Positions 8,625 through 51,821 of a stretch of DNA of 64,000 bases are shown in pieces. The position numbers and the translations under genes are program-made. The DNA is from Viola odorata. Its lineage: Eukaryota; Streptophyta; Magnoliopsida; Malpighiales; Violaceae. The stretch spans positions 42,095,105-42,159,104 of the forward strand of contig OY829542.1 of the NCBI GenBank assembly GCA_963691705.1. Direction: 5' to 3'. Under the pieces are notes generated by a model, which had not been told where the DNA came from, made no database searches, and worked only from the letters and a program-made list of their open reading frames with translations. Each line of letters begins with the position of its first letter. Position 1 is the first letter of the stretch.

Positions 8625-8837
8625 TGATAACAATTAAGACAATCCTAAGGGCATTGCTATAATTATGACCCCTGAGGAGGACGGAATCCTATAGCCATAT
8701 CGGACATCTAAGCTATCACTGCTAGACTATGAGGTGTTTTCTGGGATGGTCGACATCAGCGGGGGGGGAGGTCTCACGCGTCTCTACACGCACGACATCA
8801 TCCCATCCCAGGGCAGCTACGACACCACCCACGGAGT

Positions 8838-8979
8838 TATCGCCCCCGACATCACCATGGGTATCGCCCTCGGCACCCTCCTCGGAGGTATCGCCCATGA
8901 CGTCAGATCCAGGTATCGCCCGTGACGTCAGCCAGAGCGTTATCTTTCCAGGATATCGCCTTTTTGCCCAGATATCGCC
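8838..8979 (+). promoter_or_regulatory. array of six TATCGCC motifs in U3
   Basis: TATCGCC starts at 8838, 8862, 8889, 8914, 8954 and 8973. The first four are spaced about 25 bp apart. All lie upstream of the TATA box. Repeated, evenly spaced words in U3 suggest a protein-binding array; the factor is unknown. Confidence 0.5.
8898..8930. promoter_or_regulatory. paired TGACGTCA bZIP-type sites
   Basis: Perfect TGACGTCA palindromes at 8898-8905 and 8923-8930, about 60-90 bp before the TATA box. Pairs of TGACG are the known target of plant TGA-class bZIP factors (as-1-like elements). The pair is kept in the 3' LTR (32034-32041, 32059-32066) and in the left LTR of Tat-4 (50905-50912, 50930-50937). 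Confidence 0.5.
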
Positions 8980-8989
8980 CCCAGCGGCC

Positions 8990-8997
8990 TATAAATA
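8990..8997 (+). promoter_or_regulatory. TATA box of Tat-1 5' LTR
   Basis: TATAAATA in GGCCTATAAATATCCCC; expected RNA start about 30 bp downstream. The 3' LTR copy is at 32126-32133. Confidence 0.75.
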
Positions 8998-9094
8998 TCC
9001 CCTCATTTTTAAAACATCGGGTAAGCCTAAGATTGCCTTCTAGAACCTCTGCTATTTTGAACCACTTACTGACTTAAGCATCGGAGTGTCTACG

Positions 9095-9111
9095 CCGGAG
9101 CCCCCCTCCGG
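9095..9111 (+). other. conserved CCGGAG-loop-CTCCGG hairpin in the RNA leader
   Basis: Six-base stem with a 5-base C-rich loop, downstream of the predicted RNA start. The same stem is in Tat-2 (32713-32729) and, longer, in the left LTR of Tat-4 (50725-50743). Confidence 0.5.
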
Positions 9112-9202
9112 TGCTTTGCAGGTGTGTCCGACGTCAGCTACAGCGACTCAAACCAACAGAAGCCATCGTCCCGATCGTCTCAAAGATTGAATCTTATCAA
9201 AT

Positions 9203-9221: not shown

Positions 9222-9285
9222 CTTGGTCCATTAAGTGAGCGTCCTTAATAGCCAAGCTCTGTTTTACCCAGAGATCGGAACAATC

Positions 9286-11095: not shown

Positions 11096-14000
11096 CAGAG
11101 AAGGATAATTTTCCTGGAGGGAGAGGTAAAGAAGCTTTCACAGTAGACGACGAGGACTTCCCTATGATTAACATCATAGCGGGAGGGACTCCTTATATGG
11201 ACGGATCAGAGCAATTGATGACTGCGTTAGGAGATAAACGCAAACGAGATGGCACGCTAAAGAAAGGTGAAGCGATAAGCATCCTAGATCGCATGATATT
11301 AGCCTTCTCAGAAGAGGACAAAAAGGCGTTGTCTATCCGCATAATGATGCATTGGTGGTTACGCCCATCATCGCCAGTCACGGAGTCAGAAGAACTCTTG
11401 TTGATAATGGGAGTGCGGTGAACCTCTTCTCGTTAAAGGCCTACAATCTCATGAAACGACCCGACAACGAGTTAACACGGTGCAAGAAACCCATAATTGG
11501 AGTGGACGGGGTCCCGATCCCTATCACAGGGATAACTACTTTGCCCGTATACTTTAGAGAAGACACCTCCAAGCGATCGGAGGATCTATTATTCCTTGTC
11601 GTGGACTTAAACTTGCCCTGCAATGTCATACTCGGACGACCCTTCCTCAACCACTTTGGAGCGGTGATATCTCAGAAGCATCTGAAGATGAAATACCCCT
11701 CCTGGGACGGAGTGGTATCGATAAAGGGCAACCAAAAACTGGCGGCTGAATGCTACCTGTTCATGACTCAAAAGAGTTGCGATAGGTATGTATGTATAAT
11801 GGTGGACCCATACGAACAGGGTGATGAGAAGCGCGCTCAACCTCTGGACAAAATGGTGCCCGTACCAGTGATCAGCATAGAAGAAGCAAGCTTCCTAGTC
11901 AGCGAAAAGCTCAGTCCAGCGAAAAACCTTCAATTAGCCCGGTTATTGAACAAATGTCAAGGAGAGTTCGCGTGGAAACCCACAGACATGCCGGGTATAT
12001 CACGCAAAATAGCCGAACACCGGCTCAATGTTGACCTTGGCGTCAGGCTGGTCCAGCAAAAGTGGTGCGCGTTCTCTACGGAAAAAGCTTTAGCCGTTGA
12101 TAAAGAAGTGACAAAGCTCCTTGACGCAGGGTTCATCCGCGAAGTTCAATACCCTACTTGGTTAGCCAACCCAATTCTTGTTCCTAAGCCCAATGGAGAT
12201 TGGCGCATGTGTATCGACTTTACCAATTTGAACGATGCTTGCCCTAAGGATTGCTACCCGCTTCCCCGTATTGACCAATTAGTTGATCAGACTGCCGGGT
12301 ACGCATATTTGAGTTCACTTGACGCTAACTTCGGATACCACCAAATTCCCATGGCCGTTGAAGATGAAGAAAAGACTGCCTTCATCACTCCTAAGGCCAC
12401 TTACTGTTATACGGTGATGCCGTTTGGGCTAAAGAACGCTGGGGCGACGTTCCAACGTATGACAAACAAGATATTCGAAGAACAGATAGGGAGGAATGTG
12501 GAAGCATACATTGATGATATATTGGTAAAGAGCGCGAACTTTCAGGATCACTTGCAGGATCTGAAATAAGTCTTTAACGTGATGAAAAGGCACAGCATGA
12601 AATTGAACCCCCGAAAATGCATGTTTGCGTTTCAGACGGGGAAATTCCTAGGCTACGTAGTCAGCCAAAAAGGAATCCAGCCTAACCCATCAAAGATTAA
12701 AGCCATACAAGACATGATATCTCCAAGAACCGTTAAGGATGTACAAAGGCTAACAGGGCGCGTTATCGCCCTAGGGCGATTTATTTCCAAACAAGGCGAG
12801 AAGTGTCTCCCTTTTTTCAAAATCATACGCAAGAAAGCACCGTTCGGGTGGACCCCAGAATGTGAAGAGGCGTTCGTTAGCCTAAAAGATTACCTATCGT
12901 CTGACCTACTGCTGACAAGGCCGGAGCTGGGTGATACTTTATATTTATACCTCGGCGCTGCTGACGAAGTGGTTAGTGTCGTCCTCATTCGTGATGATAG
13001 CCACGCGCACCACCCTGTATATTTTGTAAGTCACGTTCTGAAAGATGCAGAGCTGCGATACGTCCGAATTGAGAAAATAGCGTTCGCACTAATACAAGCC
13101 ACTCGAAAAATGGGCAGATACTTCCAGTCCTACCCCGTTATCGTGCTTACAGACCAACCTCTGAAGAGAATATTTCGAAAGCCTGAGTCCTCAGGAAGAA
13201 TGTTAATCTAGGCGCTCGAACTCGAGTAGTACGGGATGAGGTATCAGTCCCGACCGTCCGTGAAGGCTCAAATCCTGGCAGATTTTATAGCAGAATGCAC
13301 CTTTACAGAAGATCCGTTAACAGATGTACCCGAAGAGGAGTGGGGCGACATGGATCTCCCGTTTTCAGAAACTTATACGGACCTCTGGATCATTCATGTA
13401 GATGGAGCTAAAAACCAAGAATTGGCTGGAACCGGAATCTTCACAAATGGGCCGCACGATATGCGAATACAGTACGCCATCCGAATTCTGCAGCTGTTAT
13501 CCAATAAAGCGGCAGAGTACGAGGCATTACTAGCCGGACTCAGGATAGGGAGAAGCCTTTCTTCCAAAGGTAGGCACGATACCGGAAGAACAGGAGACCT
13601 GCGTCTAACAATTTGTGGTGACTCCAAACTGGTAATTGACCAGGTCTTGGGGCACTCTCAGGCCCGGGAGCCCATCATGATCCAATACCTCACCAAGGTG
13701 AAACGAGAGCTGTTGGAAATAAAGAAAGAAGGCATGCAAGTCAGCTTTGTGCATGTTCCCCGAGAGGACAACGCCGAAGCTGACAATCTCGCCAAGCTGG
13801 TCGCGAACCCGGAAGCGTCCATACCCAAAGATGTGTATTACCGTGAGTTACCTGTACCTTCCTTCATGGAAGAGCAAGCGTCTCTGTGTGTGGAAGAACT
13901 CGAGAATGACTGGCGGGTCCCCGTAATCAAATAATTGAAACACGAAGAACTGCTTGTGGATATCGCTGAAAAGAAAAAGGTGCTGAGACAGGCAGCTCGC

Positions 14001-15145
14001 TGTACGTACTATGATGGGGACTTGGTTCGGAGATGTTTTTCTCACCTAGCCGCCAAATTATAACGGAGCAAGAGGGTCTTCACACCTTGCGCGAAATTCA
14101 CGATGGGGTGTGCGGTATGCACGTGTCGGGTGGCACCCTGGCTGCACAAGTTTTTAGATCTGGATTCTATTGGCCCACCATCCGGAGAGATTGCCACAAC
14201 TATGTGCAAACTTGCCCGAAATGTCAGGAGTTCTCTAAAATTCCTCGACGTCCCGCCACCGAAATATCTGAGATTATCGCTCCTTGCCCTTTTGCTAAAT
14301 GGGGGATCGATATCCTGGGCCCATTTCCAAAGGCAAGGTCCCAACTGAAATTTGTGATAGTGGCAGTGGACTACTTTACGAAGTGGGCGGAAGCTGAAGC
14401 GGTTGCCAACATCACGGCGGAAAAAACTTAGCGTTTCTTCAAACACCAAGTTATCATGAGGTTTGACGTACCCCGCATCCTAGTCAGTGATAACGGAACA
14501 CAGTTCACCAGCTAATTCTTCAAAGACCAGTGCTCGGAATTCGGGATTGAGCAGCGATTCTTTTCCATGGCTCACCCGCAAACCAATGGGCAGGCGAAAG
14601 TGACCAACCGGGGCATCCTCAGCAGTATTAAGAAAAACCTAGAGGGGTCTAAAAAGAAGTGGGCCGAAGAGCTGCCATATGTGATGTGGGCGTACCGCAT
14701 GACCATTAAAACCAGTACCGGAGAAACACCTTTCACATTGGCCTTTGGAACCGAGGCTGTTACGCCAGTAGAAATTGGTACCATGAGCCTGCGAGTGGCT
14801 CATTTTCGGGAGGAGCTGAATGAGGAAGGGTTACGAGCTAACCTTGACGCATTACCAGAGGTCCGAGAAGAAACCCTCCTGAAAATGCTACATTACAAGT
14901 GAAAGATGGCTCGTTATCATAACAGGCGCGTCAAAGAACGGTTGCTGAAGGCAGGCGACCTGGTGCTCAGAGACAAGCGAGCGGTTGGTCAACGTGTGGG
15001 GAAGCATAGTCCAAACTAGGATAGGCCGTATCGCGTTACCCGCGTTATCAGGAAAGGAGCCTATCATCTAGAGACACTCGATGGTACTCCCTTACCTAAC
15101 TCTTGGAACATCGCTCGTTTGAAATTATATTATCCTAGAACTTGA
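11096..15145 (+). pseudogene. pol: Tat-1 pol: protease, RT, RNase H, second RNase H, integrase (broken)
   Basis: Polyprotein for cDNA synthesis and integration. Protease: VDNGSAVNLF and later 'ILGRPFLN'. Reverse transcriptase about 12080-12560, with 'DWRMCIDF', 'MPFGLKNAGATFQRM' and the catalytic YIDDILVKS. First RNase H about 12900-13200. Second, archaeal-type RNase H about 13370-13810 ('IHVDGAKN', 'AAEYEALLAGL', 'GDSKLVIDQVLG'), the hallmark of the Tat lineage. Integrase: GLHTLREIHDG...CPKCQEF zinc finger, then 'WGIDILGPFP', 'SDNGTQF' and 'HPQTNGQAKVTN'. The E of DDE is replaced by K in the last motif. One-base deletions lie near 11320 and 14055. Stops are at 12567, 13209, 13227, 13932, 14429, 14513, 14900 and 15017. 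Not functional. Confidence 0.92.
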
Positions 15146-16274: not shown

Positions 16275-17426
16275 TCAGCCCTCAGGGTTCCTCCGTTTCC
16301 AGCCCTCTGCCTTAGCTTGGCGAAAACCCGCATCAATGAGATCGGCAGACTTCCGTTTGAAAGCCCTCGTGACCTCCTCACCTTTATACGCATCTACCCC
16401 ATGGACCTCCTCGAAGCAATCAACCAAAATAATGGCAGCCCGCTCGACATGCCACAGACACTTATCGGCTGACTCCTCTTCCAGAGAGGCCTTCCCTTCC
16501 TCCAGGGCAGCTTTCTCCCTTGCCAAGGATGACTTCTCTTCTTCCAGGGTGATATTCTTGGCTTTTTCCGCTGTCAAGGCAGCATCAAGGGCGGATGCTT
16601 GCCCTTTCAGTTCCTGCTGGGTCAGCAATAATTGAGTACGTTCCTCCAGCAACTTTTTCTTCTCATTTCGCTCTTTGGAAAGTTCAGCCAAGGAGGCGGG
16701 AAGAGAAGCAGCCTGACGTTGCGCGTGCTCTGTCCAGTAATGGAACTTCACAAAGTTGGTGAAGAGGCTAGAGCGTAGCAAATTCGCCTTGTCGTCGTCA
16801 ATCTTAGAGAGGAAAGCCTCCCGTTCGGCAGCGGACGATAATATCTGGGTAGCCAATAAAGCGGAAACCTCGTCCGAGCCATCGCCCCCGATAGCCGCCA
16901 AGCCTGTGTTGCAAAAATCATATAAGCCAACTTGATGAGTCACAGTACCGGACTCACTCACCGAACTTAGATCAGCAGCAAAGTTGAAGGTGGTGGCCTC
17001 TTCGCCGGAACGTTGCGACAATGGAACGCTCGAAGGGACGAACACCAGGGGAACATGAGGGTGAACCTGTGTAGAAGTACCCCCTTGGATGATGTAGGAA
17101 CCATGGGAATGGTAGCCCGAAAAGTCCTGCAAACCCTCTTGGTAGTCCAGGTTAGGAGGATATGAGTGAACATGCCCGCCGAAAGAATTGGGCGAAGCCC
17201 CGTAAGACTCAGCTGTACCCATGTTTACCAGAAACTCGGAGGGATGATTCTGGGGAACAGCCATGGAAACGAAGGCGCTGGCAGGTCTGACTTCCATCAC
17301 AGCGACAATAGAGGATAAGCTGCCGCCCTCACCCTCCTGCCGAGGTCTCTTCTTGGAACCACCCAACACATAACCCATCTCCATATCTCCTATGAGAGAT
17401 GCGGAAGTAGGAGCAACAACAGTATC

Positions 17427-17522
17427 CTACAAAGAACACAGTATAAAACGAAGATAAGAGAAACAGATGAAATAATGACAGACATCAATGTACAACATAT
17501 CGCGGCCAAAAAGCACACTCAC
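17427..17522 (-). other. intron 2 of antisense gene D (Tat-1)
   Basis: Reverse-strand GTGAGTGTGC...TTTGTAG, 96 bp, joining codons ATT and GAT in phase 0. The Tat-3 counterpart is at 47895-48004. Confidence 0.7.
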
Positions 17523-17881
17523 AATAGCAGTGTCAAAAGGAGGCGCTTCTGAAGAAGCTGCCACGTCCGGAGAAGGAGTGAGAGTGGCAATGCTTCTCAT
17601 TCTTTTCTTCTTTTTTCCTTTGGCAAGGGCCTTAGGGGCGTTAGAAGAAGATGGCTGAGTAGGATGAGCAGCGACGGTCACGATGGGGATACCCGAAGGA
17701 ATGTCGGTATTTCCCTCACCAGCCGAGGAAGAGGATACTTGAGCGAGGCTCACGGAAGCAGCGGTTGGTACAGTTGGGTTATCAGTAGCTTCCGTGGAGA
17801 CAACCCTCTCATTTTCTTCTCTTTCCCGAGCCCTTTTTAGTCGTCTCCTAACGCTCTCAGGCGTGTAATTGGGATCCGTCG

Positions 17882-17951
17882 CTGCATGATCGCAAAATAA
17901 CATTAGCGTTAGTATCAGCAGTAATAAGGAAGGAAGCAACACGACACTCAC
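17882..17951 (-). other. intron 1 of antisense gene D (Tat-1)
   Basis: Reverse-strand GTGAGTGTCG...TGCAG, 70 bp, with GATACTAACGCTAA about 30 bases before the acceptor, a TACTAAC branch site. It joins AGA-C to CG in frame. The Tat-3 and Tat-4 counterparts are also exactly 70 bp. Confidence 0.8.
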
Positions 17952-18091
17952 GTCTAACACAGGATTGAATGTCCGCCCCGCATGCCAGATAACGGGTGTG
18001 AACGCTGATTTCCAGTTGAAGCAATTTGTCTAACCAGCCTTGTTCAAGTTGAGGAAGGCTCTCCGGCTGGCCCCAGGCGCTATCCTTGACG

Positions 18092-18096
18092 TCTTG
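18092..18096 (+). repeat. target-site duplication of the chromovirus, left copy (TCTTG)
   Basis: TCTTG before TGATACGA at 18097, repeated at 25668-25672 after GCATCA at 25667. Confidence 0.95.
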
Positions 18097-19003
18097 TGAT
18101 ACGATCCTGGTTCCTTAAGATGCGTAGCACCAATTTTGATCTTTGTTCAAAGACGGATTTCCTGCGGAAATAGATAACTCGACGAGTACGAGCTTAGACC
18201 ACTTAGCTAACCTGTGCTAAGAGCCCTAATCGATTTCAAGTCAAGGGTCTTGAATCGAGTTCTTAGGACTAGACTCAACAATGTGAGAATCACACTAAGA
18301 TAAACGACACAATAATACAATTCCAAGATTTACTTGTATACGACTCAAGTATTGCGGACTCAAGAAGAACAAGGTTCAACCAACTTGAACAAGGGGCGGA
18401 GATTGAAGAGATTAACTCAATTTATCAAATAACAACCAACTTAATAAAGTAGCCAAGTGGTTCCTTATATAGGTTACAAACAAACCCTAATAGTAAACCA
18501 AATAGGAATAGAAGTAGGACTTCCAAAATAGGAAGATAACTTAACTAATTAAAACTGTCTAATTAACTAATTAAGCTAAAATAATTAAAGTCAACAACTT
18601 GAACTTCAGTCAACGCGCGCTTCTGGACACGCGAAACGGGCAGGAGCCATTTTGAGCAATCGGCACGCGAGACAGATGAGTGAAACGGCAATGGCTGAGT
18701 GAAACGGTCAAGTGCCGATTTAAGAGAAACGGACAAGAGCCGTTTTGAACGAATCGGACAAGAGCCGTTTTGGTGACAAACGGTCAAGTGCCGTTTCTGG
18801 CAGAATCATCTTCGGTCATTATGAAAGTAAGGAGATTCACAACTCTTGGTGTCTTCTCTCTAAGTGCAGCTTCCTCACTTGTCCTCTCACATTCCAGCTC
18901 CTTGTGAATGAGAGATGACAAACGGTCTTGAAGCTTTCTAGCTCTGGCTCGAGTCATTGGACCAGCTGGTGGTAACGGTAGTTGGATGCGTGGATTCGCA
19001 TCA
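18097..19003 (-). repeat. chromovirus 3' LTR
   Basis: 907 bp, reverse-strand start TGATGCGAATCC and end GATCGTATCA. It includes the last 220 bp of pol and an inverted-repeat array at 18633-18797. Confidence 0.95.
18633..18797. repeat. array of AAACGG-loop-CCGTTT inverted repeats in the LTR
   Basis: Five to six words of the form AAACGGnCAAGnGCCGTTT, several self-complementary. The copy in the other LTR is 25297-25460. A similar AAAACGG/CCGTTTT pair lies in gag at 22817-22836. Confidence 0.6.
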
Positions 19004-19018
19004 TTCCCTCCCCCTTCG
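19004..19018 (-). other. polypurine tract of the chromovirus
   Basis: Reverse-strand GAAGGGGGAGGGAA directly before the 3' LTR start TGATGCG; it also codes for part of the acidic tail (SEGGGND). Confidence 0.8.
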
Positions 19019-21859
19019 GAAGGATTCGCCCTCGAATCCGAATCGGCATCAGCTGAAAGTCCATACTCGTCATCTGCATCAAACAATTCTAAGTCAGAAA
19101 CATTAAAGGTAGAGCTAACGGCACCATACTCACTCGGCAACGCCAGTTTATAGGCATTGTTGTTGATCTTCTCGACAATCTGGAACGGTCCGTCGCCTCT
19201 AGGAGATAGCTTGCCGCGGCGTTGGGCAGGAAAACGCTCCTTGCGCATATGCAACCAAATCCAATCGCCAACCTGGAACGTCACTAGCCGTCGGCCATCG
19301 TTCCGTTTCAGCATCAGCTTCTCATTCATGCGCTCAATGTTCTGCTTCGCCTTAGCATGTAATTGCTTGACAAAATCAGCCTTCTGGGCACCATCTAAAC
19401 TCACAACATCACTCAAAGGAAAAGGAGTTAAATCCAAAACAGTTCTAGGATTAAATCCATACACTAGTTCAAACGGCGAGTAATGAGTAGTATAATGAAC
19501 AGCACGGTTGTAAGCAAATTCAATAAACGGTAAATGATCAACCCAAGTAGAAACATGCTTACGAACTAGGGTGCGTAAAAGGGAGCCAAGAGTCCGATTT
19601 ACCACCTCTGTTTGACCATCCGTTTGTGGGTGATAAGATGTAGAATACAATAACTTAGTACCAAGCTTCTTCCATAAGACACGCCAAAAATGACTAAGAA
19701 ACTTAGTATCTCTATCACTCACAATCGTCAAAGGGATACCATGCAAACGGACTACTTCACGAAAGAACAAATCAGCAATCTGAGTAGCATCAGAAGTAGT
19801 CGAACATGCAATAAAATGGGACATTTTTGAAAACCTGTCCACCACAACAAAAACACTATCCTTACCGTTCTTAGACCTGGGTAGTCCGACGACAAAGTCC
19901 ATGGACAAATCGGTCCAAGGATGAGAAGGAACAGGTAACGGCATGTATTCTCCATGACCAGCAGATTTAGATTTGGCTTTACGACAAGTCAAACATCTAG
20001 CAATAATGCGCACGACATCACGCTTCATGTGAGGCCAATAAAAGTGATCATGTAACACATCCAAAGTTTTAGTCACGCCAAAGTGACCCATTAAACCACC
20101 ACTATGGGCTTCATGCACCAGTAATTCACGAAGAGAGCAATGAGGAATACATAAATGTTTGCCTTTAAACAAATAACCCTCATGCTTGTAGAATTTAGAA
20201 CCAGAAATAGAAACGCCATGCAAATAAATATCACCAAAATCAGAATCGGTAGCATAGAGTTCGATAATGTGCGAAAATCCAAGCAATTTGGCATTTAGAG
20301 AAGTAATGAGCACGTACCTTCGAGATAGTACATCGGCAACAACATTCTCTTTACCTTGCTTGTACTGAATGTGGTAAGGGAAGGCTTCAATGAATTCCAT
20401 CCAAACGGCATGTCGCCGATTCAGCTTCCCTTGACCCTTTAGGTATTTCAAGCTCAAATGGTCTGTGTGGATGATAAACTCTCTCGGCATCAAGTAGTGT
20501 TGCCATGTTTCCAACGCTCTGACAAGAGCATAGAACTCCTTGTCATAGGTAGGATATCGGAGTTGGGCATCCTTGAGCTTTTCACTGAAATAGGCAATCG
20601 GTCGTTTCTATTGCATCAGAACGGCGCCGATTCCTAACCCGCTGGCGTCGCACTCGATCTCAAACGCCTTGCTGAAGTCGGGCAATGCTACCACGGGAGC
20701 GGCACAGAGCCGTTCCTTGAGGGTAGCAAACGCCTCCTCCTGTTGTTGCTCCCACCTGAAAACAACATTCTTTTTTGTTAAATCATTCAATGGAACGACA
20801 ATGGTGCTAAAATCCTTTACAAAACGCCGATAGAAACTCGCTAATCCATGGAACGATCTCACATCGGTAGCGGCCTTCGGCGTCGGCCATTCCCGTATCG
20901 CGCGGATCTTCTCTTCATCCACTTTAACGCCTCCTGCACTGACAATGAAACCAAGAAAACCAACTTGTTCCAATGCAAAAGAACACTTACTAGGTTTAGC
21001 ATATAATTTCTGCTCACGAAGTGTTAGAAAAACTTCCCTAAGATGTAAAGCATGTTCATCCAATGATTTGCTATAGATTAAAATGTCATCAAAATAAACT
21101 ACAACAAATTTACCAATTAAGTGCCGAAGTACATGGTTCATTAACCTCATAAAGGTGCTAGGAGCATTAGTCAAGCCAAACGGCATAACCATCCATTCAT
21201 ATAAGCCATACTTAGTTTTAAAAGCAGTTTTCCATTCATCCCCTTCTTTCATACGAATTTGGTGGTAGCCACTCATTAAATCAATTTTAGAAAATACTAT
21301 ACTACCACTTAATTCATCTAACATATCATCCAATCGAGGAATAGGATGGCGATACTTTACAGTGATTTTGTTGACTGCTCGACAATCAACACACATGCGC
21401 CAAGATCCGTCCTTCTTTGGGACCAGAATGACTGGAATGGCACATGGAGACAGACTCTCCCGAACGTACCCACGCGCAAGCAAATCGTCCACTTGCCGTT
21501 GCAGTTCCTTTGTCTCCTCCGGATTGGATCGGTAAGCCGGCCGATGAGGAATTGCCGATCCAGGAACAAAGTCGATCTGATGTTCTATGCCTCGAATCGG
21601 AGGTAAGCCAGGTGGCATTTCTTCGGGTAGAACATCTCCAAATTCCTGCAAGAGAGAAGATATACCAATCGGAACGGTATGGTGCCGTTCCGTTTCATTT
21701 GAGGTTAAACAATAAGAGCGAAAATGGATAAGAAGTAGAGGACGGCTTGCGTCAAAACAATTGTTATGAGAAAGCATGGCTCTCCTTACGTCGCTCCCCT
21801 TGGCATATACACTCAATTTCTTTTTATTTACCTCTCCTTTTCTCTCAATGCCACTCTCA

Positions 21860-21972
21860 GCACGCTTACTCTTTTCGTGCGAATGTTTACACTCGGCCTC
21901 TGCATGTTTGCTGTTTTCATGCGACTGTTTACACTCTCCCTCTGCATGCTTACTATTTTCATGCGAATGTTT
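21860..21972 (-). repeat. 42-bp tandem repeat in the protease-RT linker
   Basis: Units start at 21860, 21902 and 21944 (the last partial). On the reverse strand they code for a 14-residue repeat of the form HSHENSKHAEAECK, in frame with pol. Confidence 0.8.
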
Positions 21973-23831
21973 AAGGCTCACACTCTCAGTGTTTCCCTCT
22001 ATATATTTCACACTCAAACCTTCTTTTTCTCTCGCAAGCTGTTTTGAAATTTCATATTCAGCATGTGACTTAGCAAGCCATTGCTGATCCTCAAACACTT
22101 CAGCTTGTGTTAACGGTGCCAAGGTGAACTTCTGACCATCCTTAACCAACTTGTAGAGGTTCCTCTTCCCATCATGATTCGCTGCGCGATCAAACTGCCA
22201 TGGGCGTCCAAGGAGGATATGGCTTGCTTGCATCGGCACAACATCACAGAGAACTTCATCTTGGTATTTGCCGATACGAAACTTAACAAGCACCTGTTTG
22301 GTTACCTTAATACCGTTGTCATCCGTCATCCAGTGTAGATGATACGGTTTCGGATGCTTTACCGTTGGCAAGTCCAGCTTATGAACCATCAGCGCACTGG
22401 CACAGTTGGTGTAGCTTCTGTTGTCTATGATAATGGAACAGCCCTTGTGATCAATCACCCCGCGGGTGTGGAACAGATTGGTCCGTTGCTCCTCATCACA
22501 CACTTCTTCTGTGGACTGTACGCTCAGGGTCCGTCGGATTACAAGCAACCGAACATGGTCACCTCTCTGATGGTCAATATCCGAATCGGTCTGACCGTTT
22601 CCCTCATGTTCCGTTTCCTCCTGTTCATCATCCGATTCTTCCTCGCCAGTCGGCCTGATGATGAAAACTCTTTTATTCGGGCATTCTGATTTCTTATGCC
22701 CTCGGCCGTTGCACTTGAAACAGATAATTTCCTTAGTGGCTGGCCGATCCACTGGTGGAGTATAAGGTTTGGTAGGTGCCGTTTTAGAAGGAACAACAGC
22801 ACTGACAGATCCCTTCAAAACGGCAGGGGCCGTTTTGTCATCCTTATTCCAAGACGTCTTCTTCCAAGGTGTCGACCCAGTAGACTTATAGGAACTCCTA
22901 GCTTTCCTATGCTTCTCAATCTTTTGAGCCATATGAAGCATCTCCTCTAGAGTATTGTATTGCGTCAGCTCCAATGCATCGGCAACGTCTGCATTCAAAC
23001 CAGCAAGAAACCGAGCCATCGTTACCTCAGTTTCTTCAGTAATCCTCGCTTGAGCCAAAGCAATTTCCATCTCATTAAAGTATGCTCCAACTCCCTTGCT
23101 GCCTTGCTTCAAGGTTTGAAGCCGTTGATGAAGCTCACGGTGAAAGTGGGCAGGGACAAACCGTTGTCTCATCGCCTGCTTCATCTCTTCCCAATTAGCA
23201 ATCGGACCAGCTAAGACAGCTGCCCTTTTCCGATTGAACTGCTCCCACCAATGACTAGCATACCCACAGAATTCGACTGCGGCGATCTGAACCTTTTTAC
23301 CTTCCGAATAATTGTGACATAAGAAGATAGCATCTACTTTCCTTTCCCAAGTTAAGTATGCATCAGGGTCGTCAGCACCCTCAAACGGAGGTATTTTCAT
23401 TTTGATGCTGTTTAGATTAGCATCCAAACGGTCATCCTCCCGTTCTCTCCTACCATCACGACGGTCTCGTCTCTCTCTCCTCTGTCCATCCCTTGTATTT
23501 ATCCAGCCTTCTCCCCCATCAGGTTTTCCTTCCCAATCAGAATATGGTAATTGTGGACCAAAGCAAGATTAGGCCGACGATTCTCATCACATGGTCGACG
23601 GGCGTTGTCATCTTCTTCGGACAGATCAGACAAACGGCCATCACGTTGGTTATTCGCGGCTATAGGAACTGGATTAATGGTACCTAACGCTTCCACCTTA
23701 GCTATCCTTGCATCGGTAGTTAGCTGCCGCTCATTTGCAGTTAATTGCCGTTCATTCAATGTTCGGAGTTGTTCCGTCATTATGGCTAGTATAGCCGATA
23801 GATCGGGTTGTTGTACTCCCTCTTGAGACAT

Positions 23832-24760
23832 CTTTTACTTTTCCTGAAATTCACAACACCAAAGAAAACGTAAAATTGCACTAACCTAGCACTCCCTCAC
23901 GTGTTTACTCTCGTGTTTAATCACTCTAATAATCTCACAAAATCTCTCAAATTTCCCTGCAATGTTCAAGTGTTAGTGAGACTCAAGAATCCAAAGAAAA
24001 AGCTTCCAAGAAGACTCTCAAAGAAACTAGCACGGAAAAGAATTGTGACACTTGATATTTGAGTAATTGCAAGAACAACCAATCAAACAAATAGCAAGTA
24101 GAGTAGAAGGCAATTTCAAGGAATCAAAGAAAGCTCAAAATTGACTCGAAGGGACTGAAACAAGTTCAATTTCAGTTATGATTGTAATACCCAATCGCAG
24201 TGCAATTTAATTCCTTGATAAATCTGATTTTTATGGAGCAAATACTTCTATATATTTTCGTATTTGCAGGATCGGATCCCTTTCTTTTCTTTGGGAAATT
24301 TCCCTGTTGTTGTTTTTTTTTTTTTGTTTTTTTTTTTTTTTGACAGCAAAACACAATTCAGTGTTTTGATCAGAACTTTTTACTCTCAACTCGGAATCGA
24401 CCGATTCTTTTTGATTCGGAAGCCCAACAGATTCAGCTTTCCAACGAAACCACAATTACTAAAATCGGACGTCAGTTGCTATATATATGAATACAAATTC
24501 GACAACTGAAATTACTAAAACTGAACAGAATTTTCTCTTGTATTTTGTGACCTTCTTGTGGGTAGAAAACGCAAGTAATTTAGCGAATTTCAACACAACA
24601 AACTGGAACGAAACACAACCAATTGTATTCAAGTAACTAACCAAGCACAGCAAGAAATCGGTTTTGAATGGAGTAGAAAGAAATACCGATTTCAACGATG
24701 AAACTTGAAGACAATTAAGATACTTACCAATCTTTGAACGCCTTAAGCTCCGCTACCAAC
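23832..24760 (-). other. chromovirus 5' leader
   Basis: 929 bp between the primer-binding site and the gag ATG on the reverse strand. It has an A-rich tract (T runs at 24310-24343 on the plus strand) and no long open frame. Confidence 0.8.
24747..24758 (-). other. primer-binding site of the chromovirus
   Basis: Reverse-strand TGGTAGCGGAGC two bases after the LTR; 10 of 12 match the TGGTATCAGAGC complement of initiator Met tRNA. Confidence 0.7.
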
Positions 24761-25667
24761 TGATACGATCCTGGTTCCTTAGGATGCGTAGCACCAATTT
24801 TGATCTTTGTTCAAAGACGGATTTCCTGCGGAAATAGATAACTCGACGAGTACGAGCTTAGACCACTTAGCTAACCTGTGCTAAGAGCCCTAATCGATTT
24901 CAAGTCAAGGGTCTTGAATCGAGTTCTTAGGACTAGACTCAACAATGTGAGAATCACACTAAGATAAACGACACAATAATACAATTCCAAGATTTACTTG
25001 TATACGACTCAAGTATTGCGGACTCAAGAAGAACAAGGTTCAACCAACTTGAACAAGGGGCGGAGATTGAAGAGATTAACTCAATTTATCAAATAACAGC
25101 CAACTTAATAAAGTAGCCAAGTGGTTCCTTATATAGGTTACAAACAAACCCTAATAGTAAACCAAATAGGAATAGAAGTAGGACTTCCAAAATAGGAAGA
25201 TAACTTAACTAATTAAAACTGTCTAATTAACTAATTAAGCTAAAATAATTAAAGTCAACAACTTGAACTTCAGTCAACGCGCGCTTCTGGACACGCGAAA
25301 CGGGCAGGAGCCGTTTTGAGCAATCGGCACGCGAGACAGATGAGTGAAACGGCAATGGCTGAGTGAAACGGTCAAGTGCCGATTTAAGCGAAACGGACAA
25401 GAGCCGTTTTGAACGAATCGGACAAGAGCCGTTTTGGTGACAAACGGTCAAGTGCCGTTTCTAGCAGAATCATCTTCGGTCATTGTGAAAGTAAGGAGAT
25501 TCACAACTCTTGGTGTCTTCTCTCTAAGTGCAGCTTCCTCACTTGTCCTCTCACATTCCAGCTCCTTGTGAATGAGAGATGACAAACGGTCTTGAAGCTT
25601 TCTAGCTCTGGCTCGAGTCATTGGACCAGCTGGTGGTAACGGTAGTTGGATGCGTGGATTCGCATCA
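24761..25667 (-). repeat. chromovirus 5' LTR
   Basis: 907 bp, same ends as the 3' LTR. Differences noted by eye include T/C-type changes near 24779, 25098, 25313, 25388, 25463 and 25487. It carries a second copy of the pol tail, which is not part of a gene here. Confidence 0.95.
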
Positions 25668-26239
25668 TCTTGGTTAAACCCAGATCGCCACTAAGAACCA
25701 GGAACTTCAAGAAGATCTATCACAAAGAACTCCTTTTTCCAAGCCTCGACGGAAGACTCAATGTGGAGGAGTTTCCAAGTAAAGGACTTGAGTGAGTCAT
25801 CGTCATAACGGGGCAATATCGTTATCACACCCCGACACTTCATCAACTTAAAAATTGACTTAAGCAACAAAAGGGTAGGGGAAGTGATCCCCTTATATTT
25901 ACAAAGTTCCAGAAAGGCATAAACACAGCAATATGCATTTGGGGCTAATTGGACGGGATTCAAATCGCAAGCAATAAGCAATTATTTTATGAAAGGGTCG
26001 ACGGGAAGCCGGAACCATAATGGAACATTTGTGCGTACAGAACCCTACGTTTGCCCGTCAAAACGTTGTTCAAGCGTATCGACTCAGGGGCAACGGTGAC
26101 CTTATAACCGGCAGGGATAACAACATTATGTGCGGCTAAATGCTCATCAAGAGCGACTTCAGAGGTGATACTACTAACCGTAATATCCATCTTTTTTCTC
26201 ATCGGCAGACTTCGACTCAGGGTGGCGAGTCTTAGCCAT

Positions 26240-26909
26240 GACAGAAATAAGAAATTAAAGACGAAGAAGACGATGGAAGAAAATAGGAAATACCTTTAGA
26301 GAAAAAGCACTTCGAGAACCCTGAATGGTGGAAAGGAAATAAGACGGCTAGAGAGAATATGAAGAAAGCAGAATGACAAAAGTAAGAAAAAGAAATAAGT
26401 GTTGGGTTTTATAACCCTAGTGGCCAAAAGAAATGACGGACGCTGCAGTCGTTGCGTGAGGAGCGTCACAAGGAACAGACTCAAGCAATGAGTACAATTC
26501 TAGAGAAGCGCGACAACACTTCGATTTTGCTAAAATTCTAGAGCACGCTAGCCCTCGGTGCCCTAAAGAACGGACACGTGTGTCTGTGCCATCATGACTT
26601 TTCTCTCGCATTAATGAGAGGATCGTGAGCATTAAATGCTCTGAAAAGTAGAAATGATTTTCTGGAATAAGACAAGAGCGATATTGCAATAATGGAGATA
26701 ACGCAGGATGGCGTTAGCCAAGCCGACAACTTTCGAGATAACGCGGGAAAGCAAAACAAAGATCAGTTATTATCTAAGAATGAAGTACAGATATCGTTGC
26801 GCGATAAGGCGTTATTACAAGACAAAGGAAGCAAATAAAGAGGAAAATCCTCCAAAGGGTCAGCCTTGACTAATCATGGTCCAGCACGGATATCGCAACT
26901 GCCATTCCC
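26240..26909 (-). other. spacer between antisense genes C and D of Tat-1
   Basis: About 670 bp with no open frame of note. The promoter of gene D lies at 26407-26413. GC-rich words of GATAACGC type recur at 26690-26810. Confidence 0.5.
26407..26413 (-). promoter_or_regulatory. TATA box of antisense gene D (Tat-1)
   Basis: Reverse-strand CTAGGGTTATAAAACCC, about 170 bp before the ATG at 26239. The same word lies before gene D in Tat-3 (49242-49248) and Tat-4 (54593-54599). Confidence 0.65.
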
Positions 26910-29123
26910 CTACTCCTCCCCGAAAGAAAGAAAATCTCCCTCGCTTTCGCCTAAATCCTTTATCTTCTTAGAGGTGTAATCAGCCAACTTAGATGAATCA
27001 ACAGTCCCCTAGCGATAGAGATCTGTAAATCCGGCGATATAGACCTCCATGGTCTTGTTTTTCCACCAAGCTATCTTCGAAGGTACTTTGGCCAGATCCG
27101 TGTCGCGGGACGATATCTCTTCACAAAGGAGAGAGTTTCTTTTGTTGGCCGCCACCAATTCCGCCTCCAGCAGCTCTACCTTAGCCTTCCCCTTTGATTT
27201 TTCTCGCGCGAGCTCGGCGCGACAGTCGTTCAACTCTGCCTAGGTTCGACCTTGAAGCTTCGACAACTCTGTTACCTTCGCCAAAGCGGCGTCTAGTTGT
27301 TCCTTCGAACTGGGAGAGCGCCGAACCTTGTCGCTCTGATCCTCGAGAAAATAATGCAGCTCGCGGAAGCTGGCCAGCATGTCGTTCAGAAGGCGTGTAT
27401 GCTGAATTTCAGGGGGATGCCGCAGGAACACTTCCTTGTCCTTCGAAGAACTGAACATTTGGCCCACTATAGAGCCTACCGGCTCATTTCGCGATAACGT
27501 ATCCGATATCCCTAAAGCGCGAAGCCCGTTAGTACAAAAAGATGACAGATCCAGCTGGTATGCGACATTTCCTTGAGGACTTTGAGGGGAAAGATTGGCG
27601 ATATAGGGAGGAGAGTAACTTTTTGCGGAACTACCAATGCCCGAGATCGAAGAAAGGAATAAGGGTTGAGGCTTCCTCGGGAGAGGATTAAGAGGAACAC
27701 TTGGGTTTGAAACCGGCATGGTCACATCCGGAATACAGGAAGAGATCGGAGAATCAGGGCCACCAGACGGCAAGGGTGAGTCCACCACCGCCGAAACCTC
27801 ATTAGCTTTGGAAGGAACGGCAGAAGGCACCTTGACAACCTCCGCCACCTGCAAGGTACTCGCGACATGAGAAATGTCAACCCCCGCTGTAGGAACTGCG
27901 TTAACTTCCCTCAAGGGAGGAACCGGTGGGCCACTTTTCTCTTTTCGGGTTTTCTTTCGGAGACGCTCCATCTAGGCAGCTATCTCTTCGCTATCGTCCT
28001 CGGTTGACTCCGCCGCGGGATCATTTTTTCTCACCCTAAGCTTCATTCGTCGAGCAAGGGTGGCGTGACGTAGCTCGGAACCGGCATCCATGCACTCGCT
28101 ATCACTGTCAACTATTCCAGTCGTAGGACGACTCGGAGTCACTCCCCTGCCCCGAGGCGGCAACCAATTCTCAAGAAAATGAGAAGGTTGAGCGGAAGCA
28201 CTATGTGTTGCGACGGTCTTAGTTCTCCTTCTCCTCGGCGGGATAGTCGGACGGCTGGAGCTTTCAGGTGGTGGAGAAGGGGGTAATGTCTGAAGCGGTA
28301 CCACGTTCAGAGGAGTGTTATTTCCCCCGGAGGAACGACCCTCAGTGCTACCTGCCAGCAAAACATGTTAATATAGCAAGCAAATTGAAGCGATAACGTG
28401 GCAAAAGAGAAACTCACCAACGACACACTCTTTCAAGGGTCTGAACCGAGCAAATTCCCGAATGCGGAAAGGCCCTTCTATTTCTAACAGGGCTGTAACA
28501 TGGGACACCTCAGTACCAGACAACACTTCTGGTTTTCTCCAAGTGGCGCTGGTAATCTCTCGATTAAAACCCCCGCGCCACCAGTGAGACGGCAGGCGAA
28601 GGGTGAAGAAGCCATTTTTCCAGTTGTCCGCGCTCTCCTCAAAACCTTGAAAGTTCTGCCAGAAAAATTGCACGATGGCGTCATTCCATCTTGGGGTGAT
28701 ATCCACCAAGCAGTCGTGACAGCTCAAGTTGAAAAATGTGCGGAACAGATCGAGGGATGGAGTGAAAATACGCTTCATCTCGTATCCCCGAAGGAAGGCA
28801 TAAATCCCACACCAGGAAGGCAGAGTTATTTGAACGGGATTGAGATCGTAATGATTTAGCAGCTTCATCAGAGAAGTATGGATCGGGAGATGAAACCCGT
28901 AGAGGAACATCTTGAAATTAACCAGCCGGAACGTTCCCCACATGGCATCATGAAGCCAAATATCCTTCGTAGGGATATAAGGGCGGCAGCCCAAGGGGAA
29001 GGTGATACCGTTCTCCTCTAACTCTGCCCTCAAAACTTCATTACAATAAAAAATAATACGAGCTCTCCTAGCCTCGAGATCTATGGGATTTTCGGCACCC
29101 GCAGTGGCTCTAACACGAGACAT
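26910..29123 (-). pseudogene. Tat-1 antisense gene C: Transposase_28-like protein with coiled coil, spliced
   Basis: ATG at 29123 (MSRVRATAGAENPIDLEARR). Exon 1 is 29123-28418 and exon 2 is 28351-26910. Exon 1 holds 'FKMFLYGFHLPIHTSLMKLL', DLNPVQ, 'WCGIYAFL', 'FTPSLDLFRTFF' and 'WKNGFF', the same layout as gene D and as the putative gypsy-type transposase family. Exon 2 starts Ser/Pro-rich with a PPRRRRTK basic patch. It continues acidic and hydrophilic, then 'HYFLEDQSDKV' and a coiled coil ('ALAKVTELSKLQ', 'LNDCRAELAREKSKGKAKVE'). In-frame stops TAG lie at 27972-27974, 27240-27242 and 27009-27011. With these read through it would be about 715 residues. Function unknown. Confidence 0.75.
28352..28417 (-). 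other. intron of antisense gene C (Tat-1)
   Basis: Reverse-strand GTGAGTTTCT...TGGCAG, 66 bp, joining GTT-G to GT-AGC in frame. The Tat-3 intron at the same place (61753-61818) is also 66 bp. Confidence 0.75.
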
Positions 29124-29314
29124 AAGGGACTGGAAAAATAAAACTACGACGAGAGAGGAACAAAATACCTGGAGCAAGAAGCCAGTAAACAGGCCGTCGG
29201 TGCCGGCGAGCAGTTGCAGAAACTCCTCTTGAGCAGGAAGAAGCACAGGAGAAAGAGAAAGTGTGAAAAATTTCGAAGTATTGGCAAAAGTAATGAAAGA
29301 GAATAGCGGTTCCC

Positions 29315-29321
29315 TTATAAA
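29315..29321 (-). promoter_or_regulatory. TATA box of antisense gene C (Tat-1)
   Basis: Reverse-strand GACCTTTATAAGGGAA about 195 bp before the ATG at 29123. The Tat-4 copy is at 53767-53773. The Tat-3 copy has drifted to TTTAAAA near 62697-62705. Confidence 0.55.
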
Positions 29322-29595
29322 GGTCGAACTTGAAGAAGAGACAACCTGTAAAAGTGAGACACGTGAGGAGCAGAAAGTGACGCATGGATAGTCATTTATG
29401 TCTTTGGGAGAAGACAGTTACCGACTGAAAACTGAAAGACGGTTGCACCCAGCAACAGGTATCCCTCCGCGGCAACCCTTGGTGCTTGAAGAAATGGCGC
29501 GAGAAGGCGATAGGAGAACAAAGGGAAAATGAAGTGTTATCTTATTCATTTTCAAAAAGCCATATGGCATCTACAAAGAGGCAAGACACGCTAAA

Positions 29596-30017
29596 CTAAT
29601 CGCCATCAGACCAAGAGATATCATAACAATAAACTGCATCATCATCTGAGAACGATAGCTCCCTGCTGACGGGAGGGAAAGGCTCATCAACCCTTTTTCC
29701 GATGCGTATCATTGATCGGCCTGACTCCTCCTCAGCGGCTGGCGTCACCGTTTCAATGCCCGCGCAGCAGGGAGAGCCATTTTTGGCGAATCACGAGGAA
29801 GAAGAGATGATTCATCCCCCTTTTGAACAGAAGGGGCGGGAGAATTAAAAAGCGGTTCAGACACCTTTAAGGATTTTTTCCTTAGCCTCTTGCGACCCCG
29901 CCAGTGGACGAACGGCCTCCACAGAGGCGACGGAGGAGGATTGTCTGAATCTGGCGAAGTTGGAGGAGTTGGCGGAGAATCCCGCGCAGTAGTATCCAAA
30001 GAATAAGAATCAACCAT
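29596..30017 (-). pseudogene. Tat-1 antisense gene B: proline-rich, acidic-tailed small protein (frameshifted)
   Basis: ATG at 30017 (MVDSYSLDTTARDS). The protein starts with a proline-rich run (SPPTPPTSPDSDNPPPSP), has a basic patch (WRGRKRLRKKSLK) like a nuclear localisation signal, and should end in an acidic tail closing with 'WSDGD' before TAG at 29596-29598. In this copy the frame goes off after 'LPAARALKR' near 29745. The intact Tat-4 copy (53080-53499) has 139 codons. No family is recognised. Length conservation with Tat-3 (420 bp in both) argues that it is a real gene. The basic patch suggests, but does not prove, a nuclear protein. Confidence 0.6.
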
Positions 30018-30087
30018 GAGATCATAGGCAACCTGTCGAGAGGAAAAATAAACAAGAAGATGAACGGAAATAGGGGAAAGGATCCCA

Positions 30088-30094
30088 TTAAATA
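30088..30094 (-). promoter_or_regulatory. TATA-like box of antisense gene B (Tat-1)
   Basis: Reverse-strand GGCTATTTAATGGGAT about 70 bp before the ATG at 30017. The word is kept in Tat-4 (52999-53005) and Tat-3 (63493-63499). Confidence 0.55.
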
Positions 30095-30498
30095 GCCAAA
30101 AAAGGGGGAAAAGCTTTTCGATCATCCGACACGACTCTTGAGAACTGACATGCGTACAACCTGGAGTGCAAATCTAGATTTGCAGTCACACCTGTTGGAA
30201 TCTCCCACAGATCGAGGAAAACCAAAAATTAGCCCAATCAGTTGACAATGAAGCGGTGGCGCAGAATTAATGCAGAACGGTTAGCGAGGAAACCGTCGTG
30301 AAAAAACCATCCAATGACCAACTCGTTTTCAGTTGGGCTGAGGAGGCCTCCAACCGAAAAAAGACAAATGGCGCATTAAGGAAGAAGAATAGTTGCAAGC
30401 GGCATAATAAAAACAGTTTATTTATTATGGCCTAACGGCCGAGAGGTACAGCAGCGTAAAAAGAAAAAAGAAAAAAGGCTCAAAGGGAGCCACCGCCG

Positions 30499-30875
30499 TC
30501 AGGCGTCGGAACCAGCATCCTCGGGTATAATGGGAATGTCTCTTAGGGAGTCCATGACCAGAGTAAGGTCAGTAGAGGTGACCCTCATCCCCTTCAGGCA
30601 GCACCCCAACATGTCCTTGCGCTGCTGCAGCATGGCGATCACCACTTGAATCCTAGCAATGGAGGTGGCCAACTTCGACACGCTCTCTAAATGACTGAAA
30701 TCCTCTAGAGATGTAGCTCCCAGCCTGGAATGGAGTGGGGTCAGCATCCCTTGCAACTCCAAGATGTCCTCGGAGGTCTTGATCAGCATGTTCTCCAGGA
30801 ACCCGACGTCACCATCATTGAGGTTCTTGAGAGTATGGCCCTTGGAAAGGAGGATTTTTTGGTCAAATGATCCAT
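30499..30875 (-). pseudogene. Tat-1 antisense gene A: small helical protein of unknown function
   Basis: The ATG expected from Tat-4 is at 30875 (MDHLT...), but one base is missing in an A/T run near 30850, so the first 28 or so codons are out of frame. From 30789 the frame is open for 96 codons to the stop at 30499. Sequence is rich in Leu, Met, Ser and Thr with 'EDILELQGMLTPL', 'ESVSKLATSIARIQ' and 'MLQQRKDMLGCC'. It looks helical, with no signal peptide or membrane segment. Over 96 shared codons the Tat-1 and Tat-4 proteins differ at only about eight residues, although gag-pol of Tat-1 is full of stops. It is the first gene of the antisense cassette, next to the 3' LTR. Confidence 0.6.
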
Positions 30876-30930
30876 GATGCAGATTATGAAAGAAAAAGAT
30901 GAGATGAACTTGAGTGGAGAAAGCTCTCAG

Positions 30931-30937
30931 ATTTATA
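30931..30937 (-). promoter_or_regulatory. TATA box of antisense gene A (Tat-1)
   Basis: Reverse-strand GAGCCTATAAATCTG about 60 bp before the ATG at 30875. The same word is in Tat-4 at 52175-52181. Confidence 0.65.
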
Positions 30938-31111
30938 GGCTCCGAGAAATGGGCCTTTTGAAAGAGGAGGTCCTCAAAAGATGAGTCGCCCCGTTACCAT
31001 CAAAGACCGATGGACTTGATATGGAAACGAGGATCGACGTCAGTGTGCTACTAAGGATGCTGGTACTCGAGAGGAGTACGAGCTAGAATCCTAGAAAACG
31101 CGAAGGAGCGC

Positions 31112-31760: not shown

Positions 31761-32336
31761 TGATAACAATTAAGACAATCATAAGGGCATTGCTGTAATT
31801 ATGACCCTTGAGGAGGACGGAATCCTATAGCCCTATCGGACATCTAAGCTATCGCCGCTAGACTATGAGGTGTTTTCTGGGATGGTCAACATCAGTGGGG
31901 GGGGAGGTCTCACGTGTCTCTGCACGCACGACATCATCCCATCCCAGGGCAGCCACGACACCACCCACGGAGTTATCGCCCCCGGCATCACCATGGGTAT
32001 CGCCCTCGGCACCTTCCTCGGAGGTATCGCCTGTGACGTCAGATCCAGGTATTGCCCGTGACGTCAGCCAGAGCGTTATCTTTCCGGGATATCGCCTTTT
32101 TGCCCAGATATCGCCCCTAGCGGCCTATAAATATCCCCTCATTTTTAAAACATCAGGTAAGCCTAAGATTGCCTTCTAGAACCTCTGCTATTTTAAACCA
32201 CTTACTGACTTAAGCATCAGAGTGTCTACGCCGGAGCCCCCCCTCTGGTGCTTTACAGGTGTGTCCGACATCAGCTACAGCAACTCAGACCAACAGAAGC
32301 CATCGTCCCGATCGTCTCAAAGATTGAATCTTATCA
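31761..32336 (+). repeat. Tat-1 3' LTR
   Basis: 576 bp, TGATAACAATTAAG to GAATCTTATCA, TATA box at 32126-32133, followed by the AGAGG duplication at 32337-32341. Confidence 0.93.
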
Positions 32337-32341
32337 AGAGG
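32337..32341 (+). repeat. target-site duplication of Tat-1, right copy (AGAGG)
   Basis: Matches 8620-8624. Confidence 0.95.
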
Positions 32342-51238: not shown

Positions 51239-51821
51239 TAAGCCCAACTGAAAACGAGCCCGAGTGTTCACCAAGGGCTGTCATTCTCTATCCATGTCTG
51301 GAATCTTAGGTGAGGGTTCTTTCTTTCATAAGGCGATATGCTCATAGGATCTCCGAGCTTCTTTATCTCCTTTAGCACAACAGAGATTGGTTTGAACGAC
51401 GGGTAGAGCTTAGATCTGGAGTTTTCCTTCGAGTAAGCAGATTCTGGCCTTCATTCTTGTCTAAAGACCCTTCCTCCTGAGGTATTAAGAGATCCGCGAG
51501 AGACGCCGCTATCCCGTTCATAACCATTAGGGCGTTGCTTTTGCCCAGTGATAGTATTCTGCTTGGTCCATCGGCAGGGCTTAGAAAGTCGCAACTTTGT
51601 TCCCGTCGTAGGAGAGCTACTGACGGGCTACTTTCGATACCGCCGAGGATTGCGACTAGGTCGTACTGTAGGCTCGCATGCGCTCTGGGTCCATCATCCT
51701 TTTGAGTGAACTGCAAACACATAGAGGAGATAGGTATTCATGGAGAAATTAATAAACTTTATACTTACAGGGATTTTGAGATAACGCGGGCTCTGTCTTT
51801 CCTTTCCGCCCATTGAAATAG

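Follow-up and report, generated by a model that had tools for sequence, protein, structure and literature searches.

Four antisense genes, including a TRP28 pair with predicted introns, in a Retand-type Ty3/gypsy element of Viola odorata

Results

A 64,000-nucleotide stretch of the Viola odorata genome (contig OY829542.1, positions 42,095,105-42,159,104; hereafter the window, in whose numbering all positions are given unless stated otherwise) contains the long terminal repeat (LTR) retrotransposon Tat-1, in which the interval between pol and the 3' LTR holds four genes on the strand opposite to gag-pol. Taken inward from the 3' LTR along the minus strand, these are open reading frame (ORF) 1, ORF2, gene I and gene II, beginning at the ATG of ORF1 (30875) and finishing with the final base of the gene II stop codon (16275). 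The same two positions bound a cassette of four antisense genes, A-D, that an initial annotation of this DNA had placed here; by these end points A-D would correspond to ORF1, ORF2, gene I and gene II. Genes I and II are approximately 715 and 740 codons long and both are read as Transposase_28 (TRP28) genes. Two corrections to the initial annotation are required: two of the four genes appear to be paralogues of one TRP28 family, apparently with introns, and the Tat-1 block is interrupted in the window copy by a younger gypsy element.

The paired LTRs around ordered gag, reverse transcriptase (RT), RNase H and integrase domains identify Tat-1 as a Ty3/gypsy LTR retrotransposon. A Pfam scan returned the series gag, RVT_1, RNase H, RVT_3 and Integrase_H2C2, with RVT_3 at 13230-13931 flanked by the first RNase H (RH, 12570-13208) and Integrase_H2C2 (14015-14428). 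Within the Tat clade, the Ogre/Retand branch is stated to be marked by a further RNase H placed between RH and integrase (PMC6317226), and an antisense TRP28 ORF is described as characteristic of Retand elements, TRP28 (PF04195) occurring in 97% of clusters (Vicient, 2025; PMC11963269). Tat-1 possesses both features, namely the extra RNase H in the RH-integrase interval and an antisense TRP28 ORF (gene I, 32.2 bits) between pol and the 3' LTR, and is thus a Retand-type member of this branch.

The Tat-1 copy in the window is decayed: ORF1 has a frameshift, and stops or frameshifts also interrupt ORF2, exon 2 of gene I and exon 1 of gene II. The analysis covered, in addition, 20 fetched sister copies, taken from 39 other matches. 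The stop-to-stop minus-strand frames of these copies recur as one set, consisting of ORF1, ORF2 and two sets in which a TRP28 frame is followed by a long basic, coiled-coil frame (Table 1). Single copies are frequently broken, the stop-to-stop frame being open at 135-145 amino acids (aa) for ORF1 and at 191-192 aa for ORF2 in 12 of the 20 copies each. No Pfam domain was matched by ORF1; an AlphaFold2 model of the Tat-4 ORF1 consists of two long helices with a predicted local distance difference test score (pLDDT) of 65. In ORF2 a cluster of basic residues and a C-terminus that is both acidic and aromatic are, by eye, kept in Tat-1 and in the further families Tat-4, Tat-3 and Tat-5. The acidic-aromatic tail of this fast-evolving protein resembles activation domains, again by eye.

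Table 1. Features of Tat-1 and its antisense genes in the window.
Feature	Position	Strand	Evidence or remark
Tat-1 5' LTR	8625..9200	+	95.3% identity with 31761-32337 across 577 columns
Tat-1 gag-pol, decayed	9235..14902	+	Pfam order: gag, RT, RNase H, second RNase H (RVT_3), integrase zinc-binding domain
ORF1 TATA block CCTATAAATC	30930..30939	-	17/17 sequences with ATG motif found, Tat-4 included
ORF1, 125 aa in sister copies, frameshifted in window copy	30499..30875	-	Met-to-stop kept in Tat-4, Tat-3 and Tat-5
ORF2 TATA-like block GGCTATTTAATG	30086..30097	-	TATTTAA in 15/15 sequences
ORF2, 140 aa in sister copies, premature stop in window copy	29596..30017	-	Frames of sister copies
Gene I TATA candidate CCTTTATAAGGG	29312..29323	-	TATAAG in 17/20; not significant
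Gene I exon 1, TRP28 domain	28418..29123	-	PF04195 32.2 bits, cut-off 26.2
Gene I predicted intron 1, 66 nucleotides (nt), phase 1	28352..28417	-	GT 21/21, AG 20/21
Gene I exon 2 including stop codon	26910..28351	-	Basic clusters, C-terminal coiled coil (by eye); disrupted in window copy
Gene II TATA block AGGGTTATAAAACCC	26404..26418	-	22-base identical run of Tat-1 and Tat-3
Gene II exon 1, 5' part, TRP28-like, frameshifted in window copy	25673..26239	-	31% identity with gene I exon 1
Nested younger gypsy element, not part of cassette	18097..25667	-	LTRs 99.3% identical; target site duplication TCTTG on both sides
Gene II exon 1, 3' part, far side of nested element	17952..18096	-	Joined to 5' part in 18/20 copies
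Gene II predicted intron 1, 70 nt, phase 1	17882..17951	-	GT 19/19, AG 20/20 readable
Gene II exon 2, basic cluster resembling a nuclear localization signal	17523..17881	-	Frames of sister copies
Gene II predicted intron 2, 96 nt, phase 0	17427..17522	-	GT 20/20, AG 20/20 readable
Gene II exon 3 including stop codon	16275..17426	-	C-terminal coiled coil (by eye)
Tat-1 3' LTR	31761..32337	+	Partner of 8625-9200, 95.3% identical

The stops that split the TRP28 frames fall inside three predicted introns, whose excision restores the frame in phase. Across the window copy and the 20 sister copies, GT was present at 60 of 60 and AG at 60 of 61 readable sites, the introns beginning with GTGAGT or GTAAGC and ending in AG. 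The first introns also contain a branch sequence of the TAAC type. The T fraction is 0.40-0.50 in the introns (0.44 in gene I intron 1) against 0.18-0.27 in the flanking exons. With GT-AG ends, a U-rich body and a restored frame, the three gaps have the properties of U2-type introns, and their splicing is predicted. Gene I intron 1 is kept in three families, the same GT..AG and a branch-like TAAC being found in Tat-3 and Tat-5, and gene II intron 1 in four, with GTGAGTG and TACTAA common to all; in eight Tat-3 copies the latter intron showed GT in 8/8 and AG in 7/8. Intron loss through reverse transcription of an antisense mRNA was considered for one copy (L034) and rejected, the deletion there not lying at the splice sites.

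Comparison of the two TRP28 genes indicates that they are paralogues of a single family. Gene I exceeded the PF04195 cut-off of 26.2 bits in Tat-1, Tat-3 (34.8), Tat-4 (48.1) and Tat-5 (40.3), as did gene II of Tat-5 (34.3). Gene I of Tat-1 shares 31% identity over 205 aa with gene II of Tat-3 (E 4e-27), and gene II exon 3 shares 26% over 242 aa with gene I exon 2 (E 8e-12), a match to which coiled-coil bias may contribute. Between Tat-1 and Tat-3, identity rises to 54% for gene I with gene I and to 59% for gene II with gene II. Since each gene is closer to its own counterpart across families, the duplication of TRP28 is judged older than the split of the Tat-1 and Tat-3 families. By hand count, both paralogues have intron 1 in phase 1, 36 residues past a W..PE that they share; this common place and phase suggests that the intron is older still than the duplication.

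Codon-level comparison between families indicates protein-level purifying selection on the four antisense genes. Against Tat-4, Tat-3 and Tat-5, respectively, the median ratio of nonsynonymous to synonymous substitution (dN/dS) was 0.13, 0.14 and 0.10 for ORF1, 0.43, 0.61 and 0.42 for ORF2, and 0.28, 0.14 and 0.17 for gene I exon 1, the reference for the last running 16 codons into intron 1 and its Tat-4 match (194 codons) exceeding the 139 codons kept in Tat-4, so that some paralogous match is included. Gene I exon 2, measured as two overlapping pieces, gave 0.16-0.19 against Tat-3 and 0.30-0.32 against Tat-5. For gene II the values were 0.17 (Tat-4) and 0.12 (Tat-3) in exon 1, with dS saturated against Tat-5, 0.45 (Tat-3) in exon 2, and 0.33 (Tat-3) and 0.28 (Tat-5) in exon 3. 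The antisense genes thus range from 0.10 to 0.61 between families, compared with 0.07-0.14 for gag-pol of the window copy (0.14 against Tat-4 and 0.07 against Tat-3). Within the Tat-1 family the medians over eight exon pieces were 0.34-0.67, as is expected of copies that drift neutrally once inserted. For the same reason a dN/dS near 1 in young copies, which the initial annotation took as telling against function, is a poor test.

Nucleotide alignments of Tat-1 copies with Tat-4 gave a similar picture. In five coding stretches, third-position divergence was 0.20-0.27 against 0.04-0.19 at the other positions, and indel columns numbered 0.06-0.75 per 100. Four of five non-coding stretches were flat by codon position, the fifth (190 bp) giving 0.18/0.10/0.23, and non-coding indels amounted to 1.6-6.3 per 100 except in the gene II leader (0.26).

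Candidate promoters were sought upstream of each gene, counting only the copies with the exact ATG motif (16, 14, 18 and 14 of the 20 Tat-1 copies for ORF1, ORF2, gene I and gene II, respectively). Conservation of putative TATA blocks across four families is supported for ORF1, ORF2 and gene II and is weaker for gene I, so that the separate promoters proposed in the initial annotation find support for three of the four genes. At ORF1, TATAAAT is common to the four families at -56 to -67 and is the longest identical run, a length reached in 71 of 5000 shuffles. The longest four-family run at ORF2 is GGCTATTTAA at -77 to -84 (25 of 5000 shuffles). At gene II, Tat-1, Tat-4 and Tat-3 have ACTAGGGTTATAAAACCCAA some 180 bases upstream of the ATG; the 22-base run that Tat-1 and Tat-3 share was reached by 6 of 2000 shuffles, and the longest run of all four families is TAGGGTTATA (16 of 5000). 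An exact 20-mer of the gene II block occurs 374 times genome-wide, and the reversed control not once. The gene I candidate reads TTTAAAAGGG in the single Tat-3 copy and is degenerate in Tat-5. The gene I leader also contains AGGTATTT (29077 and nearby), situated about 47 bases before the ATG in four families and present in the gene II leader too. As an explanation of this sequence, an intron in the 5' leader would be too short.

The four-gene layout recurs in neighbouring elements. Tat-3 carries all four genes, its gene I being split by Tat-4, and Tat-5, a further family adjoining the window (approximately 66.4-74 kb in window numbering; L038:191-7377), has the same four genes in the same order. 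Tat-4 retains ORF1 and ORF2 together with a portion of each TRP28 gene. The claim of four genes in conserved order, instead of a single accessory ORF, is accordingly upheld by Tat-1, Tat-3, Tat-5 and part of Tat-4. The positions first assigned to the additional copies also agree: in the truncated copy at 52231-55626, 52231 is the ORF1 ATG of Tat-4, which breaks off near 55626, and in the copy at 63956-46752, 63956 is the ORF1 end of Tat-3, whose ORF1 ATG lies beyond the window at the equivalent of 64339. Tat-4 itself (50638-61215) sits within the second exon of the Tat-3 gene I and is internally deleted, once from the integrase end to gene II exon 2 and once in part of gene I.

The nested gypsy element has its insertion site in exon 1 of gene II, the fourth antisense gene. 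Its LTRs (18097-19003 and 24761-25667) were compared over approximately 907 bp. It is absent from all 20 sister copies, 18 of which are continuous through the site and two deleted across it. Long gag-pol frames are found on the minus strand of this element, with pol extending into the LTR region.

Discussion

The four antisense genes of Tat-1 are probably best regarded as an accessory gene set of a Retand-type Ty3/gypsy element that would serve as a nuclear regulatory block and whose orientation would preserve its introns. This reading, based on sequence comparison, is favoured without being assured, and our confidence is higher for the gene models than for the regulatory role. Under it, each antisense gene would be transcribed toward pol from its own promoter, and the TRP28 transcripts would be spliced. 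The products would be nuclear by virtue of their basic clusters, the TRP28 products might pair through their coiled coils, and together they may act on the DNA of the element, most likely in the regulation of transcription or in support of its nuclear phase. A sense-strand gene with introns would lose them when copied through RNA. The genomic RNA of gag-pol would hold the introns of genes I and II as reverse complements, which the spliceosome would leave in place. The introns would thus survive each round of reverse transcription, because the genomic RNA carries them reversed and unspliced.

A number of observations weigh against this reading. With regard to selection, ORF2 and gene II exon 2 are under weak constraint (0.4-0.6); dS against Tat-3 and Tat-5 is near saturation, which makes the sign of selection firmer than the values; and Tat-3, Tat-4 and Tat-5 were represented by one copy each in these comparisons. 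The gene II pieces of Tat-1 (17.4 bits), Tat-3 (18.7) and Tat-4 (19.6) fall below the PF04195 cut-off. In Tat-3 copies the donor of gene II intron 2 lies elsewhere, with GT at 4 of 6 readable sites and AG at 6 of 6. Protein database searches with gene I exons 1 and 2 returned nothing at E 0.001 and hence no outside support for the exon joins; a PDB sequence search gave two matches only, at E 0.09. AlphaFold2 modelling of the TRP28 exon was weak (pLDDT 41), and the regulatory role is one that we infer. Among the candidate promoters, the ORF2 block GGCTATTTAA ties with a second 10-base run, ATTCATCTTC, the longest four-family run at gene I is AGGTATTT at -47 (26 of 5000 shuffles) in place of the TATA candidate CCTTTATAAGGG, and in pairwise shuffle tests the gene II TATA block alone stands out, those of ORF1, ORF2 and gene I failing to do so.

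Two other functions are conceivable for the proteins, both unlikely and to a similar degree; the initial annotation had itself thought of counter-silencing or of help with mobility. Some plant DNA transposons encode anti-silencing proteins, and by analogy at least one of the four products might relieve DNA methylation or RNA-directed silencing of the element. Conserved, nuclear-looking proteins with separate promoters would suit early expression from a silenced element, and ORF2 has, by eye, its basic cluster and acidic-aromatic tail; no Pfam similarity to a known anti-silencing family was found, however. Alternatively, the TRP28 proteins might bind the DNA of the element together with the pre-integration complex and bring that complex to chromatin. 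The basic clusters and coiled coils of genes I and II are compatible with such a helper of integration or nuclear import, and roles of this kind have been proposed in a review (PMC7264820), but separate antisense promoters fit a regulator better than a component of the particle.

It is less probable again that the antisense RNA itself is the functional product, pairing with genomic RNA to form double-stranded RNA and limiting copy number while the proteins matter little. The genes converge on pol, so that overlap with the genomic RNA is built in, and the idea has been raised in the same review (PMC7264820); it does not, however, predict codon-level constraint, in-phase introns and avoidance of indels in four genes. 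There is still less to recommend a reading, such as a plain ORF scan would give, of at least four intronless ORFs, each a separate single exon. In most copies neighbouring stop-to-stop ORFs are indeed separated by no more than one stop codon (28368 and 17427), but these stops lie in U-rich gaps with a conserved GT, a branch-like TAAC and an AG, and the exon 2 and exon 3 pieces are without a conserved start; separate single-exon genes were rejected on the conserved splice sites and restored frames. Neutral relics or chance ORFs are scarcely credible: most single copies do contain some stop or frameshift, but between-family dN/dS is well below 1 and periodicity is confined to coding stretches apart from one uneven spacer, and chance ORFs were rejected on the third-position excess and the few indels in coding stretches.

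Single antisense genes were known before in such elements. The Retand survey reported 57 TRP28 ORFs among 104 antisense ORFs in 63 clusters (PMC11963269). Those elements resemble Tat-1 in having antisense ORFs between pol and the 3' LTR and in the Smc-like coiled-coil matches among their other antisense ORFs; they differ in that neither a pair of TRP28 paralogues per element nor a four-gene order is described in the accessible text, from which the word intron is also absent. In maize, the antisense gene23 of Grande, the one such gene with data, is reported to have its own promoter and to encode a nuclear protein (Gómez-Orte, 2013, cited in PMC7264820), which favours the present reading. Both properties, reported for gene23, are predicted for the Tat-1 genes, which number four against the one described for Grande in that review. 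Ty3-gypsy families of common bean carry an antisense ORF2 of 211-939 aa, some with an SMC-like domain (Gao, 2014; PMC4093653), sharing the opposite orientation with the genes of Tat-1 but having, as described there, one ORF per family.

Ogre is likewise a plant Tat-clade element that uses splicing, but its intron, located between gag-prot and RT, belongs to the genomic strand and is only partly removed (PMC6317226), whereas the predicted Tat-1 introns are antisense and would be invisible to genomic RNA. HBZ and APH-2 of human T-cell leukaemia virus (HTLV), discussed in PMC11963269, are also antisense regulatory genes near the 3' LTR of a retroelement, a comparison of the way they work. The paralogue pair, the predicted introns and the four-gene layout are, for antisense genes of such elements, not described in the open literature searched, a scope that does not extend to the gene23 paper of 2013 or to the survey of extra ORFs from 2011.

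Drawn together, these comparisons suggest a wider proposal, which we put forward tentatively and with rather less confidence than the regulatory block alone. Retand-type elements may have a two-strand genome, in which the RNA strand encodes the particle and the opposite strand a regulatory block with introns and promoters of its own. This orientation would have been selected as the only way for an element that is copied through full-length RNA to keep spliced genes. The duplicated TRP28 genes would then supply a pair of nuclear regulators, perhaps acting as a heteromer. Surveys of long uninterrupted ORFs would fragment such genes, a possible cause of their apparent heterogeneity. In one large survey an open frame had to span at least 250 codons to be predicted as an extra ORF (PMC6317226), a procedure that would split genes I and II.

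Extra antisense ORFs of plant retrotransposons have been catalogued for years. The same survey asked whether they have any function, and a 2020 review urges a search for antisense and spliced transcripts (PMC7264820). Such transcripts are directly testable with the present gene models, which predict exact cDNA junctions and candidate start sites. If the orientation argument is true, it accounts for a layout so far unexplained, and if TRP28 pairs regulate the element, they offer a way into a family whose copies in the genome number from hundreds to thousands, as the 374 exact promoter blocks suggest.

Genome-wide, the PF04195 profile gave 11,413 first-look candidates, of which 150 were scored and all 150 exceeded the cut-off. 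For two of the matches listed (C2:57178402 and C2:60340139), the gene II promoter block follows on the same strand at a distance of approximately 2.3 kb downstream; no such block accompanies the remaining listed matches on those contigs, as judged by eye against the first 100 of the 374 block places. Tandem TRP28 matches at C2:52.33 Mb were rejected as a further paralogue pair, being a near-identical 2.2-kb tandem duplication around the TRP28 exon (L039:73-3200). Between the end of Tat-3 and Tat-5, coding frames in tandem repeat (PLTTKGGVDVI) were also observed (L029:1895-2281).

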